Part shown: positions 8,452 to 26,844 of the stretch, piece after piece
How the letters are laid out: each line of letters opens with the position of its first letter
Numbering within the stretch: position 1 is the first letter of the stretch
Assembly (NCBI GenBank): GCA_937889595.1
Contig: CALAOR010000079.1
Span: 62,001 to 126,000, forward strand
Source of the DNA: an uncultured bacterium
GTDB taxonomy: Bacteria; Oederibacteriota; PGYV01; Palsa-1178
Direction: 5' to 3'
DNA length: 64,000 nucleotides
Notes under the pieces: generated by a model
The model's input: the letters and a program-made list of their open reading frames with translations, nothing else
What the model was told of the DNA's origin: nothing
Databases searched by the model: none
Program-made: the position numbers and the translations under genes

Positions 8452-9705
8452 TTAATCTATGTTCATCGCTTCCAGGAATGCCTTGTTCGTTTTCTTCTTT
8501 GTCATTTCCTCGTTTAAGAACTCTATTATATCAACCGGTTTCATTTTACTCAAGAGGGCTTTTCTCAAAACCCACACTTTTCTGAGCGTATCTTTTTCAA
8601 GCAGGAGCTCTTCTTTCCTTGTCCCTGATTTGCTTATGTCTATTGCCGGGAACAGCCTTCTGTCCGCGAGTTCCCTTGAGAGCACGATTTCGCTGTTGCC
8701 GGTTCCCTTGAATTCCTCAAATATGACGTCATCCATCTTGCTTCCGGTTTCTATCAAGGCCGTCGCTATGATGGTAAGCGAACCGCCTTCTTCGATGGCG
8801 CGCGCCGCTCCAAAGAACCTTTTGGGTTTCTGCAGTGCGTTTGAATCTATACCACCGGAGAGCACCTTGCCCGAACTTGGCGCCACGGCATTATACGCCC
8901 TGGCAAGCCTTGTGATGGAGTCAAGAAGGATAATAACATCCCTTTTGTGTTCTACCAGCCTTTTGGCTTTTTCCAGGACCATCTCAGCGACCTGCAAGTG
9001 CCGTGTCGGCGGTTCGTCAAACGTTGAAGACACAACTTCGCCTTTCACGGTCCTTTCCATGTCCGTTACTTCTTCCGGTCTTTCATCTATAAGAAGCACT
9101 ATAAGGAATGCATCGGGGTGATTCTCTGTGATTGAATTTGCTATTTTCTGCAGCAGGACTGTTTTGCCGGTCCTTGGCGGCGCCACGATCAGGCCCCTCT
9201 GGCCAAAACCAAGCGGCATTAAAAGGTCCATGATGCGCATAGAAGGGTCCTTATCCTTGTTCTCAAGGACTATGTGCTTCTCGGGGTAAAGTGGCGTGAG
9301 ATTGTCAAAATAGGTCTTGTCCTTTATCGTTTCCGGGTCATCGCCGTTTATTGTCTCAACTTTCAAAAGTGCGAAGTATTTTTCCCCTTCTTTCGGCGGC
9401 CTCACCTGTCCGGCAACCACGTCGCCGGTCCGTAGGTCAAATTTCCTGATCTGCGAAGGAGATACATATATATCATCCGGTCCGGGAAGATAGTTGTAGT
9501 TTGGCGAGCGCAGGAATCCAAATCCGTCCGGGAGTATTTCAAGGACGCCTTCGCCGAATATAAGGCCGTTATTTTTCGAGTCGGTTTCAAGTATCTTGAA
9601 AATAAGCTCCTGTTTTTTCAGCGTTGCGGTTTCTTCGAGTTTGAGGTCTTTCGCGATTTTCTGGAGTTCGACCAATTTCTTAAGCTTTAAATCCTGTAGA
9701 TTCAT
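8452..9705 (-). CDS. rho: Transcription termination factor Rho
   Basis: Hexameric RNA-dependent ATPase/helicase that ends transcription at C-rich untranslated RNA. 417 residues. An N-terminal Rho-N helix bundle ([20 protein letters not shown]), a cold-shock-like RNA-binding domain with [20 protein letters not shown], then the RecA-type core with Walker A APPRTGKT (about 174-181), Walker [17 protein letters not shown] and the Q/R loops ([17 protein letters not shown]). No insertion domain, unlike many high-GC Rho proteins. ATG at 9705 is preceded by AGGAGG. A strong promoter and a long leader that may fold over the ribosome site precede it. Confidence 0.97.
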
Positions 9706-9943: not shown

Positions 9944-10222
9944 CTAATAATTTAAAACCGCCGCAGATTCCAAATATTCCTTCAAAATCTGTTTAAGCGT
10001 CGCCTTGCCCTTGCTTGTTTTAAAATAGGATTCGCGCCTCAACGCATCCTCTTTGGATTTGTGGCCTTCGAAGTAAATAAGTTCAACCGGCCGACGGTTG
10101 CGGGTGGAAACGTTACTTCCTTGGCTGTGTTCCTTTAACCTTCGGTGGATGTCCGTTGTAAAACCGGCGTAGAAGTCGTTGTCGAGGCATAATAACACAT
10201 AGACGTAAAAGAAGTTTTCCAT
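9944..10222 (-). CDS. GIY-YIG nuclease domain protein
   Basis: 92 residues, the size of the small stand-alone GIY-YIG family (YhbQ/UPF0213 type). The two halves of the signature appear as FYVYVLLC and FYAGFTTDIHRRLKEH, with the catalytic Arg in RRLKEH and Glu in EDALRRESYFK. These proteins are thought to cut DNA or be degenerate relatives of such nucleases. Two ATGs are possible: 10228 has GGAGGGG touching it, while 10222 (MENFFYVYVL) has the correct 6-base spacing and is chosen. The promoter-proximal region has been rebuilt by a hairpin insertion that duplicated the ribosome site and start codon (see repeat at 10220-10324). Confidence 0.85.
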   Translation of the reverse strand: MENFFYVYVLLCLDNDFYAGFTTDIHRRLKEHSQGSNVSTRNRRPVELIYFEGHKSKEDALRRESYFKTSKGKATLKQILKEYLESAAVLNY

Positions 10223-10324
10223 TTTCATCCCCTCCCTGTACCAGTCGTCGCTTTGCTCCTCCGGTACAGGGCACGCCCTGCTTGTGAAATAGAACAAAAG
10301 AGTTTTTTCATTTTCATCCCCTCC
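10220..10324. repeat. Hairpin H1 flanked by a 16-base direct repeat carrying SD and ATG
   Basis: CATTTTCATCCCCTCC occurs exactly at 10220-10235 and 10309-10324. On the coding strand it is GGAGGGGATGAAAATG, a ribosome site plus start codon. Between the copies lies hairpin H1 (arms CCCTGTACC 10234-10242 and GGTACAGGG 10263-10271). The upstream copy can start a 28-codon peptide (MKKLFCSISQ...) whose TGA overlaps the downstream start region. Confidence 0.75.
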
Positions 10325-10396: not shown

Positions 10397-10434
10397 CCCT
10401 GTACCAGTCGTCGCGATGCTCCTCCGGTACAGGG
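10397..10434. repeat. Hairpin H2, second copy of H1
   Basis: Arms CCCTGTACC (10397-10405) and GGTACAGGG (10426-10434); the 20-base core differs from H1 only at two bases. Located 125-165 bases upstream of H1, between the tRNA and the GIY-YIG gene. Confidence 0.75.
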
Positions 10435-10488
10435 CATTCACCACTCGCCGACGATAAGTGCGTTGTTTATTAGTAGGAATTTGGCGCG

Positions 10489-10521
10489 CCATGAACCCGA
10501 GCGATAGCGAGTGGTTCATGG
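10489..10521. repeat. Hairpin H3 joined to the tRNA-Glu 3' end
   Basis: Arms CCATGAACC (10489-10497) and GGTTCATGG (10513-10521), perfect over 9 bases, core CGAGCGATAGCGAGT. On the minus strand its first three bases are the CCA of tRNA-Glu, so the repeat starts inside the tRNA 3' end. Confidence 0.7.
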
Positions 10522-10593
10522 TACCGCTAAGGAGAATCGAACTCCTATTACAGGATTGAGAACCCCGTGTCCTAACCGTTAGACGATAGCGGC
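10519..10593 (-). tRNA. tRNA-Glu (anticodon CUC)
   Basis: 75 bases on the minus strand with encoded CCA (10519-10521). Acceptor GCCGCTA pairs with TAGCGGT (first pair G-U), D arm GTC...GGAC, anticodon stem CGGGG/TCCTG with loop TTCTCAA giving CTC (reads GAG), T arm GGAG TTCGATTC TCC. Overall pattern (TCGTCTAACGGTTAGGACA) is that of glutamate tRNA. The T stem and the G1-U72 pair are somewhat weak. Confidence 0.92.
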
Positions 10594-10663: not shown

Positions 10664-11011
10664 TCAGCCTATCATTTTTTCTATGAGGTTTTTGTCTTCT
10701 TCCTTTAATGCAAGAAACTCCAGGCCGAACTGATGCTGGCCGTTTACTTCTTTTATCCATTTAATTTCCGCAAAGGCCGTGATCGGGCCCTCCTTATACT
10801 CCGTCTTAAACTCCAGTTTTATGACATCGCCCGCTTCGCCTGTTATATTGCCCTCTATCCTCACGCCGCCTATGCTCAGATCCCTGCTCATCCCGTCGTT
10901 TTTTACGGCGAGAATGGAGTTTTCCTTGGGCATCAATTTGTATTTAACAGGATACTGCAAATAAGCCCTCTTAAACTTTCTTTTCTCAAGATGTAAATCG
11001 CCTTCATTCAT
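10664..11011 (-). CDS. PilZ domain protein (1 of 3)
   Basis: 115 residues, essentially one PilZ domain. The c-di-GMP motifs are visible as KRKFKRAYLQYPVKY (RxxxR-like, near residues 10-20) and RDLSIGGVRI (D/NxSxxG, near 44-53). It ends with FGLEFLALKEEDKNLIEKMI, nearly the same ending as the PilZ proteins at 12182 and 21829. In the family such single-domain proteins bind c-di-GMP and act on motility, pili or transcription; the target here is unknown. ATG at 11011 has GGGGTG upstream. Transcribed divergently from the CDF transporter. Confidence 0.87.
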   Translation of the reverse strand: MNEGDLHLEKRKFKRAYLQYPVKYKLMPKENSILAVKNDGMSRDLSIGGVRIEGNITGEAGDVIKLEFKTEYKEGPITAFAEIKWIKEVNGQHQFGLEFLALKEEDKNLIEKMIG

Positions 11012-12181: not shown

Positions 12182-12535
12182 TTATGAATGGAGCATGTCG
12201 TCGAGGCTTTCAGCCTCTTCTTCGCGCAGTCCCACAAACTGGACGCCGAATTCGTGCATATTTCCATCACTTTTAACCCACTTTATTTCAGCCAGGACTA
12301 TTATGATGTCCTTTTTATCCCTGCCAAAGATCTCGCACCTTATTATATCACCGGGGACTCCGATTGCTTCACCCTTGACCCTTACACCGCCTATGCTGAC
12401 ATCAGCGCTTTTTCCCTGTTTTCTTATGGTTTCAACGCTTATTTTCTTGGGCATTATCTTATAAAATATAATGAACTCTTTTTCATGCCTCTTATTGGAA
12501 CGTTTTTCGACATACATCCTGCCTTTAGTGTTCAT
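12182..12535 (-). CDS. PilZ domain protein (2 of 3)
   Basis: 117 residues with the PilZ motifs KRSNKRHEKEFIIFY (residues 11-25) and KSADVSIGGVRVKG. The ending FGVQFVGLREEEAESLDDML resembles its two paralogues. Probable c-di-GMP receptor without an effector domain. GGAGGCACTTTGA precedes ATG 12535, and a TATAAT lies about 30 bases further up, so it can be transcribed separately from the oppA-like gene 38 bases away. The CDF gene ends 60 bases beyond its stop, convergent. Confidence 0.87.
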   Translation of the reverse strand: MNTKGRMYVEKRSNKRHEKEFIIFYKIMPKKISVETIRKQGKSADVSIGGVRVKGEAIGVPGDIIRCEIFGRDKKDIIIVLAEIKWVKSDGNMHEFGVQFVGLREEEAESLDDMLHS

Positions 12536-19924: not shown

Positions 19925-20079
19925 GATACTATCGCCCCCCCTTCGTTGTGGGCCGAATAATCCTGTCAACACACATTGTGTGTTGCCGGACTTCGTATTC
20001 GGCCCCTACAAATATCTGCCTGCATTTGTAGGGGCAGCATATCATGCTGCCCGCCCTTTGCGGGGTTTTCGACAGTATC
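19925..20079. mobile_element. MITE-like element B (GATACTGTCGG family), inverted relative to element A
   Basis: 155 bases filling most of the 320-base gap between the porin-like and helical-protein genes. Its right end TTTTCGACAGTATC matches the family; the left end GATACTATCG is degraded. Inside are three hairpins also present, in reverse order, in element A: GGGCCGAATA...TATTCGGCCC, CCCCTACAAATA...ATTTGTAGGGG, and GGGCAGCAT...ATGCTGCCC. No coding capacity. Confidence 0.7.
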
Positions 20080-20149: not shown

Positions 20150-21259
20150 TTAGTAAGTTATCCTGCAGCCCAGTGTGGGCCTTACGAACTGTGAAATATT
20201 GGTATTGTCATACGTGCGCCAATCCGCTATATCCACGGCAAACTGCAGTATGGCGGAATCAAGGATGTATAACTCAAAACCGGGTGAATTTGTCAAATAC
20301 CTCTCGCCTGTCGTGCCCGAGGCGATATTGTCAAAACCCGTGAAGTTATGGTCCGCAAGATTCTGCTGGAAAGTAAGCCTGAACCATTTGGCAAAGGACG
20401 GCCTGTAACCCGCCTTGAAATAATACCCGTATGCTTTGGCATCACCCGACGACAGCGCTTTCTGCAGCACGGCGCCCGCTGCTTCGCTTCTTATCGTCAA
20501 ATCCCCAAAATCCAACATCACGCCGAAGCTGTAACGCATGAGGTTGTTGATCTCCTTATCGTCCCATTTGCCCAACGCGATGGAACCGGTGAGTTTTACC
20601 GGCCCTAATTCAGGTTCGGCATGGAGCATTACCGTGGGCTGATTATTGTTGTCGAGGTAAGCGCTTCCTCCGGTGTCTATAGCGCCGTTCATTATGTAAA
20701 GGAATACGGGTATGGACACGCTGGAAACCGAGAAACTTTTGAGTATTTCCAGACCTGATTCGTGCATTTCACCGAGGAAAGGGCTGTGAGTGAACTGCCC
20801 CGCATTGAATTCGTCCTCGAAGAAAAGCTCGGTGCCGTAATCAAGCGTGAACCTTGGCCTTAATACGCCGAACGACAGGTCCACTCCGCCGGGCAAAGAT
20901 GCTTTTGCCAGCAACCTGCTCCAGCCGTCAAAAGAAGGGGTAACATCAAACTTGGACATTTTTGAATTGATCGGGTTGCCAATTGATGGTGTGGCGCCTG
21001 TATCGCAGGCAAACTGCGGTTCAACGTCCACAGAGAACCAATCGGTCAGGTCCTGGGATATATATATCCAAATATCCCCTATGGTAAACCCCCTGGATTC
21101 AGAGCCTGTTGCACCGTTGCTGGTACCTGACGAGTAATCGAACAAACCGATCTTAAGCTGGCCGCCGACATGCGTGGCAGGCGCTCCATCAGCATAAATA
21201 GCTGAAGTCAGACATAAAACAACTGCAAAAAACAGGAACATCTGGATCTTTTTAAACAT
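20150..21259 (-). CDS. Porin-like outer membrane beta-barrel protein
   Basis: 369 residues. Signal peptide MFKKIQMFLFFAVVLCLTSAIYA, then alternating hydrophobic/polar strands typical of a barrel: GGQLKIGLFDYSS, FTIGDIWIYISQDLTDWFSV, LTIRSEAAGAVLQ, YYFKAGYRPSFAKWFRLTFQ. The C-terminus ends FVRPTLGCRITY with a final aromatic, as expected for outer-membrane insertion by BAM. Overall resemblance is to phosphate-selective or general porin families, substrate unknown. ATG 21259 is preceded by AAGGAGGGAAAA; the frame stays open to 21706 only through element A and is not used. Confidence 0.82.
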   Translation of the reverse strand: MFKKIQMFLFFAVVLCLTSAIYADGAPATHVGGQLKIGLFDYSSGTSNGATGSESRGFTIGDIWIYISQDLTDWFSVDVEPQFACDTGATPSIGNPINSKMSKFDVTPSFDGWSRLLAKASLPGGVDLSFGVLRPRFTLDYGTELFFEDEFNAGQFTHSPFLGEMHESGLEILKSFSVSSVSIPVFLYIMNGAIDTGGSAYLDNNNQPTVMLHAEPELGPVKLTGSIALGKWDDKEINNLMRYSFGVMLDFGDLTIRSEAAGAVLQKALSSGDAKAYGYYFKAGYRPSFAKWFRLTFQQNLADHNFTGFDNIASGTTGERYLTNSPGFELYILDSAILQFAVDIADWRTYDNTNISQFVRPTLGCRITY

Positions 21260-21307
21260 TTTTCCCTCCTTGGATTTTAACTCTATTTTAATCAGAAACA
21301 TTTTATA

Positions 21308-21336
21308 TATATAGCAAATAAGAGCTGGAAAATCAA
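21308..21336 (-). promoter_or_regulatory. Probable promoter of the porin-like gene
   Basis: TTGATT (21331-21336) and TATATA (21308-21313), 17-base spacer, about 50 bases before the start codon. Confidence 0.45.
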
Positions 21337-21410
21337 GTATATTTAAATACAGAAGGGTTTTAACGGCAAGTGACATAAATAAGATCGTCCTGCGGCGGAT
21401 AAAATCAAAC

Positions 21411-21576
21411 GATACTGTCGGAAAAGCCCGCAAGGGGCGGGCAGCATGATATGCTGCCCCTACAAATGCAGGCAGATATTTGTAGGGGCCGAATACGAAG
21501 TCCGGCAACAAGCAAAGTGTGTTGACAGGATTATTCGGCCCACAACGATAGTTTTTAGGGATTTTCCGACAGTATC
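21411..21576. mobile_element. MITE-like element A with perfect 15-base terminal inverted repeats
   Basis: Ends GATACTGTCGGAAAA (21411-21425) and TTTTCCGACAGTATC (21562-21576) are exact reverse complements. CAAAC borders both sides and could be a target duplication. The interior consists of hairpins (21439-21459; about 21457-21488; 21486-21541) shared with element B. Accounts for most of the 366-base gap before the HTH gene. Confidence 0.75.
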
Positions 21577-21603
21577 CAAACATTATCATCATAATGATGA
21601 GAG

Positions 21604-21618
21604 TTTTCCGGCAGTGTC
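21604..21618. repeat. Solo right end of the same element family
   Basis: TTTTCCGGCAGTGTC differs from the element A right end by two bases and follows a small palindrome (CATTATCATCATAATGATG, 21580-21600). Probably a relic of a second insertion. Confidence 0.45.
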
Positions 21619-21626
21619 CAAGCAGC

Positions 21627-21857
21627 CTACATTGCCATTTTTGCAGGATCCACGCAGTCCGTATCCATCCATTCTTCGATAAGCTCTTTTTTAAAACGCC
21701 ACGCACCCAGTATTTTCGTGCCGGGAATTTTATTAAGGCTTAATAGTTTATAAATGGTGACCGGTTTTACTTTAAGAAATACCGCGACTTCCTTTAAGGT
21801 CAATACATCATTGTTTAAATTTTCCAATTTACACTGCTCTTTTGTGCTTTTCCACAA
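21627..21857 (-). CDS. Excisionase-family helix-turn-helix DNA-binding protein
   Basis: 76 residues. The core LTLKEVAVFLKVKPVTIYKL followed by LSLNKIPGTKILGAWRF is the MerR-like/excisionase (HTH_17) fold, in which the winged helix ends with a conserved W-R-F. Such small proteins bind DNA in phage recombination or act as regulators; there is no integrase nearby. Its first 29 bases overlap the end of the PilZ gene, and no good ribosome site precedes the ATG, so translation is probably coupled; a TTG eleven codons in (LENLNND) is an alternative start. Confidence 0.78.
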   Translation of the reverse strand: MWKSTKEQCKLENLNNDVLTLKEVAVFLKVKPVTIYKLLSLNKIPGTKILGAWRFKKELIEEWMDTDCVDPAKMAM

Positions 21858-26511: not shown

Positions 26512-26686
26512 GATACTGTCTGAAAACCCTCATTAATATAGCGTATTCTTTTATCGTGACTGGTACTGATAAGATTTTGACTCAGGCCTTTGCGCGATAC
26601 CCCTTTATAATACAAGCGCAAAATCCTGAGGCAAAATCTTATCAGTGCCAGCCACGACTTAACATAAAGGCTTTTCGGGCAGTCTC
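26512..26686. mobile_element. MITE-like element D with long internal hairpin
   Basis: Left end GATACTGTCTGAAAA, right end TTTTCGGGCAGTCTC, both slightly degraded. Inside, 26561-26595 and 26616-26650 form 35-base arms that pair at about 31 positions. No coding sequence. Confidence 0.65.
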
Positions 26687-26771: not shown

Positions 26772-26839
26772 CCATGTACCATTCGCAGTAGCTCAGGTAC
26801 ATGGCATGCCATATTCGCAGTAGCTCAGGTACATGGCAT
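26772..26839. repeat. Hairpin H4 and a 27-base tandem duplication of its core and right arm
   Basis: Arms CCATGTACC (26772-26780) and GGTACATGG (26796-26804), core ATTCGCAGTAGCTCA. The block 26781-26807 is repeated exactly at 26813-26839 (period 32). Lies at the 3' end of folP and, with elements C and D, fills the 450-base gap before cdaA; no gene is seen there. Confidence 0.7.
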
Positions 26840-26844
26840 AAGCA

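Follow-up and report, generated by a model that had tools for sequence, protein, structure and literature searches.

Duplication of a ribosome site and start codon beside a hairpin at a tRNA-linked GIY-YIG gene

Why should a small nuclease gene possess two copies of its ribosome site and start codon, one on either side of a hairpin? The question is raised by a locus in the 64-kb stretch of DNA analysed here (the window). A gene of 94 codons on the minus strand (9944..10228) encodes a single-domain GIY-YIG nuclease. The 16-mer GGAGGGGATGAAAATG, recognised by sequence match on the same strand and composed of a ribosome site and ATG AAA ATG, was found at the start of this gene (10220..10235) and again upstream (10309..10324), with the hairpin H1 (10234..10271, minus strand) in between. 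As the original prediction had stated, the repeat flanks H1; both copies were exact, and there was no third exact copy in the window. Two bases of the downstream copy (10234-10235) belong to the hairpin arm; the other 14 of the 16 lie outside. It had also been claimed that the upstream copy begins a 28-codon peptide ending over the gene start, and this was borne out. The leader ORF (10225..10317, minus strand) is opened by the upstream 16-mer, runs through H1 and has 30 codons from its first ATG or 28 from its second. Its stop codon, TGA, and the first ATG of the nuclease gene are merged into ATGA.

The 16-mer pair did not arise by chance. With up to three mismatches allowed, six matches to GGAGGGGATGAAAATG were present in the window where 0.92 would be expected, and the two exact ones were those around H1. 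Within two mismatches, the 154 loci scanned contained no further copy except overlapping stretches of the window site itself. An assembly error could in principle have doubled the 16-mer, the assembly being a draft of 93 contigs, but this is extremely improbable: the copies differ in their flanks and by three differences beyond the 16-mer, and the junction is internal to a contig of 171 kb.

H1 is not the only hairpin at the locus. Upstream of the GIY-YIG gene the minus strand carries H2 (10397..10434), then the hairpin W (10489..10521; CCATGAACC...GGTTCATGG) and then a gene for tRNA-Glu (CUC) (10519..10593; ARAGORN). The 5' arm of W starts on the CCA of the tRNA, and the unit adjoins the tRNA gene. 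H2, whose inner stem is marked by a double tandem G-A and a bulged T, is 93% identical to H1 across 43 nt. Fused to it is the remnant of the right arm of a W-type hairpin (GCGAGTGGTGAATG, 10435..10448, minus strand), and a near-identical sequence occupies the same place in the related genome G003.

The relatives reveal which of the two hairpins is older. By protein similarity the closest were G003 (69%) and G021 (67%), and no closer one was present among 45 genomes of the phylum; G001, of the same genus as the window genome, lacked a rho match and had weaker GIY-YIG matches only. In G003 the hairpin adjoining the gene shares its double tandem G-A stem with H1 and H2, and in both G003 and G021 the surroundings of the hairpin are those of H2 and not those of H1. 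H2 and the G003 hairpin are bordered by GCGAGTGGT..ATG on the left and GGTACAGGGCG on the right, while H1 has neither. Likewise, GCGAGTGGTTCATG on the left of the G003 hairpin and CG on its right match the flanks of H2 and not those of H1. A junction of the same kind, where the right arm of a W-type hairpin continues into a CCCTG hairpin, was recognised by eye in G021. H2 is thus the older copy, and H1 was seen only in the window genome. Since the hairpins of G003 and G021 stand in the H2 context and neither locus contains the 16-mer, even with two mismatches allowed, H1 is a lineage-specific extra copy with which the second start came; the two arose together or in close succession in the window lineage. 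No relative was found that lacks H1 and yet keeps both copies of the 16-mer, the outcome that had been named as fatal to the original prediction. That prediction had extended neither to the seniority of H2 nor to the tRNA-linked hairpin/GIY-YIG unit which makes up the locus.

The hairpin family shows some covariation. The outermost pair of the inner stem was standard in all 26 distinct sequences compared (CG in 11, TA in 14, GC in one); because these derive from a subset of 32 among 79 hairpins, selected by xGA..GAx'T, a pattern imposed by the search expression, they support this outermost pair only. H1 and H2, with their doubled motif, are among the 47 hairpins outside the pattern.

The similarity between the two starts is longer than the 16 bases first reported: it reaches 29 nt at 90% identity. 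Compared downstream in successive blocks of ten bases, the copies share 10, 9, 7, 1, 4 and 3 positions, and upstream the identity is at chance level. Together with the order hairpin-start-hairpin-start, this length might be taken to mean that an earlier GIY-YIG copy was mostly deleted and survives as a stump in the upstream copy with its ORF, the deletion leaving H2-start followed by H1-start-gene. Contig C72 of genome G035 (locus L155) offers a parallel: a tRNA-Asn gene stands there between two GIY-YIG copies, the first interrupted by two stop codons and the second stop-free, an array which suggests repeated insertion at one tRNA. The end of the similarity after about 30 nt (one match in the next ten) and the different flanks of H1 and H2 nevertheless make a stump improbable.

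Could H1 instead have transposed into the ribosome site as a mobile hairpin, generating a target-site duplication of 14-16 bp? An exact direct repeat does touch the right end of H1, and the relatives without H1 are also without the repeat. Examination of other hairpin sites, which the original prediction had proposed, gave little encouragement. When 60-nt flanks were compared at 62 distinct hairpins, no direct repeat exceeded 8 nt at 55 of them, and a repeat of at least 11 nt was present at seven; those inspected among the seven were arrays, one tRNA copy and the window locus. General target-site duplication by these hairpins is therefore not supported. Of the claim that insertion of a hairpin doubled the start, the joint appearance of hairpin and start has stood and the target-site duplication as a general rule has not; that the site was chosen at a Shine-Dalgarno sequence rests on one case. 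Moreover, 37 non-hairpin bases (10272..10308, minus strand) separate the upstream copy from H1, and the similarity exceeds 16 nt. Known members of the IS200/IS605 family are relatives of the REP-associated enzymes and make no larger duplications, according to PMC2817692. Transposition into the ribosome site thus seems rather unlikely.

Local duplications, on the other hand, are frequent near these genes. Direct repeats of at least 14 nt were present in the 400 bp upstream at 9 of 20 hairpin loci (18 loci defined by the TGNACC..GGTNCA pattern, plus L011 and L012, assigned by eye) and at 17 of 95 other GIY-YIG loci, compared with 2 of 151 far windows; these 115 loci are the ones among 120 with enough upstream sequence. 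Among the duplicated units were pairs of 121, 111 and 57 nt, a 54-nt unit present in three copies and a tandem of 36 nt. The absence of repeats at 55 of the 62 hairpins and the frequency of local duplications together favour break-and-repair copying over classical transposition.

Our preferred explanation, to which we assign a probability of roughly one half, is that the locus represents a hairpin/GIY-YIG unit linked to a tRNA gene, in which H2 was copied into the gene start, and that the start was duplicated by break-and-repair copying. The ancestral order would have been tRNA-Glu, W, H2, ribosome site and gene. In the window lineage a second copy of H2, now H1, would have been placed inside the gene start, and the stretch of ribosome site and start duplicated along with it would be no shorter than 14-16 bp and probably close to 29 bp. 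Hairpins might extrude in a hairpin-rich tract and then be cut, perhaps by the GIY-YIG enzyme, whereupon repair synthesis would jump back and copy hairpin and target again. Cutting by this enzyme is proposed because 1ywl, a solved relative, has been placed with the structure-selective nuclease Slx1: a figure legend in a GIY-YIG survey labels it Slx-1 (PMC1564403). The duplication, the seniority of H2, the association with tRNA genes, the boundaries at hairpins and the frequency of local duplications are observed; we infer the cutting by the enzyme, the copying mechanism and the mobility of the unit. Against copying it must be said that the spacers differ where a simple tandem duplication would make them match (H2 lies 72 nt from the upstream copy, whereas H1 touches the downstream one), that most of the 37 nt to the left of H1 have no clear source and that, as for transposition, 55 of 62 hairpins stand without a repeat. 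The first 13 nt of the 37-nt segment resemble the gene start (10 of 13 positions); a search for the source of the segment turned up no convincing candidate (best score 18, null 15).

The leader ORF might be thought to have a purpose of its own. Leader and H1 could act as a regulator, translation of the leader opening H1 and freeing the ribosome site of the gene through ATGA coupling. The leader has its own ribosome site and a stop overlapping the gene start, and H1 gives a stable RNA fold (-23.1 kcal/mol, z -4.3). But the leader was not seen upstream of the GIY-YIG gene in G003, it had no Pfam match, and it is explained as a by-product of the duplication. We consider such a regulator very improbable, and the suggestion that the insertion produced a purposeful leader peptide found no support. 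The peptide, translatable on paper, is probably incidental to the duplication. H1 itself could weaken or couple translation of the GIY-YIG gene, to judge from its predicted fold.

The protein has the characteristics of a minimal GIY-YIG nuclease. Its assignment is based on PF01541 (60.7 bits against a cut-off of 22.6, the domain spanning residues 7-75), on UPF0213 structures and on invariant positions. In an alignment of 21 proteins Y10, Y20, G22, R30, H34 and E54 were invariant and E66 nearly so; we presume that these residues have catalytic roles. The nearest solved proteins by sequence were the UPF0213 members 1ywl and 1zg2. Over its 94 residues the protein matched no second Pfam family, hence no added DNA-binding domain was found, and no NCBIfam family; PHROG 314, 'homing endonuclease', gave a weak match (E 8.5e-6). 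A single-protein scan of viral contigs gave 31 stretches fitting a pattern, none of which was confirmed.

Downstream of the GIY-YIG gene lies an ORF (8452-9705, from the ORF list) which we take from its sequence to be rho. The neighbourhood of rho was compared in 15 genomes, 11 of which had a rho match. The tRNA-Glu gene was located upstream of rho, without an intervening GIY-YIG gene, in G002, G006, G007 and G008 (same strand) and in G009 (opposite strand). Because several relatives have this arrangement, the unit of the window is probably an insertion into an older tRNA-Glu/rho order. At the window locus there was no partial tRNA-Glu copy between the GIY-YIG gene and rho (score 8). In G007 a W-like hairpin was found on the CCA of tRNA-Glu where the GIY-YIG gene is absent. 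In G003 the GIY-YIG gene precedes rho and tRNA-Glu is absent; all that remains is GCGGTACCA, located before the first hairpin, which resembles the 3' end of tRNA-Glu, and two ORFs (L010:332-1260) end just before it, perhaps belonging to another element integrated in the missing tRNA-Glu gene. In the window, two ORFs resembling each other (10664-11011, 115 aa, and 12182-12535, 117 aa), the first just upstream of tRNA-Glu, look PilZ-like.

The association with tRNA genes and hairpins is not confined to the window. A tRNA gene was located within 600 bp of the GIY-YIG gene in 23 of 27 relatives from named genomes and at 27 of 93 matches in 59 related genomes, compared with none of 30 RAYT control loci. 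Wherever the two were adjacent they were codirectional (50 of 50). The density of tRNA genes was 0.48 per kb near GIY-YIG genes and 0.085 per kb beyond 1 kb. Hairpins of the form TGNACC..GGTNCA (arms of at least 8, 500-bp flanks; no hits with the reversed control pattern) numbered 29 in 57.9 kb of upstream sequence, 4 in 58.2 kb downstream and none in 177 kb farther off. They stood upstream of the gene at 18 of 120 loci, 16 of these among the 27 named ones. Hairpins with arms of at least 8 began on the 3' CCA end of 20 of 42 tRNAs upstream of such genes, against 0.88 expected.

Where the tRNA gene follows the GIY-YIG gene, 8 of 21 pairs had the 5' part of the tRNA (24-62 nt) copied exactly ahead of the GIY-YIG gene, and in six of these eight a hairpin started at the junction (control 6%). 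In the opposite orientation a tRNA 3' copy lay beyond the gene in 4 of 39 pairs. Partial tRNA copies with a score of at least 20 occurred in 14 of 50 cognate and 12 of 587 non-cognate comparisons; the window locus scored 8. At L065, L072 and L075 the anticodon marks the end of the copy, which measures 38-40 nt including upstream bases; it is followed directly by the hairpin, then by the GIY-YIG gene and the intact tRNA. Hairpin-bounded duplications comparable to the window event occur where some relatives sit in tRNA genes. A midpoint-rooted tree was built from few columns and from 106 of the 120 rows, which are not independent, since one query retrieved them all by similarity. A tRNA or hairpin was present in 36 of the 40 rows of one clade, as in 6 of the 66 other rows. 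The clade includes Patescibacteria, Omnitrophota, Planctomycetota, Bacteroidota, Verrucomicrobiota and the phylum of the window genome.

Some integrative elements use tRNA genes as attachment sites, and SegB-type homing endonucleases possess an extra DNA-binding region beyond the catalytic domain. Some loci of the clade resemble tRNA-targeted integrative elements in having a partial tRNA copy on one side and an intact tRNA restored, but in the loci read the unit holds a single small GIY-YIG gene. In T-even phages, according to PMC13096335, segmental amplification through homologous recombination is driven by SegB, a free-standing homing endonuclease of the GIY-YIG class whose gene is linked to tRNA genes. 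A free-standing GIY-YIG gene beside tRNA genes and segmental direct duplications with short homology at their junctions are common to both systems (PMC13096335). The clade described here differs in residing in bacterial chromosomes of several phyla, in the small size of its proteins (about 92-94 residues), in the hairpins at its boundaries and in that no added DNA-binding domain was found. By analogy, the unit can be likened to a SegB-type nuclease joined to REP-like hairpins. With the UPF0213 single-domain proteins 1ywl and 1zg2 it shares similarity across the whole domain, but linkage to tRNA genes is a feature of this clade. The available text of the GIY-YIG survey does not contain the name UPF0213 (0 occurrences), and its tRNA passages do not concern the location of tRNA genes (PMC1564403). 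In the part of the open-access literature covered, we found no paper on cellular GIY-YIG genes tied to tRNA genes and palindromes.

The presence of such relatives at tRNA genes, with similar hairpins, in very different bacteria suggests a little-noticed kind of mobile DNA. We tentatively extend this, as a possibility short of an even chance, to widespread mini mobile elements in which a structure-selective single-domain GIY-YIG nuclease and REP-like hairpins would spread without a transposase or integrase, the nuclease cutting tRNA genes at either the anticodon or the CCA end and an intact tRNA being regenerated; the duplicated start would be a trace of hairpin self-copying. If the link between tRNA, hairpin and GIY-YIG gene is causal, some bacterial palindromic repeats are mobilised by an enzyme other than RAYT, tRNA genes are targeted by elements only a few hundred bases long, and the strategy of phage SegB has its equivalent on chromosomes across phyla. 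As a compact trace of one copying event, the duplicated start offers a concrete substrate for testing the mechanism.

The hairpin family is also dispersed like REP elements. The window genome contained 42 CCNTGNACC..GGTNCANGG hairpins, against 4 for the backwards pattern, mostly away from GIY-YIG genes and some in adjacent pairs or arrays. In being short, imperfect, dispersed palindromes, partly paired or arrayed, they are similar to REP and BIME sequences as portrayed in PMC2817692 and PMC3733652; the GTAG or CGTC tag of those systems, as given there, was absent beside H1, H2 and the hairpin of G003. A Y1 (RAYT-type) transposase could be the mover of the hairpins. The window genome had eight Y1-transposase matches, all of them more than 10 kb from any listed hairpin. 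In contrast to REP sequences, the hairpins accompany the GIY-YIG gene and not RAYT genes: 30 control loci, part of the Y1 matches in 59 genomes, contained one hairpin in 89.7 kb (two with the reversed control), so that there was no enrichment and RAYT was rejected as the hairpin partner.

Several longer repeats were observed as well. At 26772-26840 the window has another CCATGTACC hairpin, accompanied by part of a second copy; larger composite repeats lie nearby (inverted repeat 26554-26657). Two inverted repeats of 128 nt, 96% complementary (19943-20070 and 21421-21548), flank or enter an ORF of 518 codons (20150-21706, minus strand), one past its 3' end and one in its 5' part; their motif TTTGTAGGGGC also occurs near a hairpin on contig C52 (L004). 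In genome G000 (loci L107-L121) many dispersed hairpins lie inside longer composite repeats with blocks such as TTTTCCGACAGTATCT.
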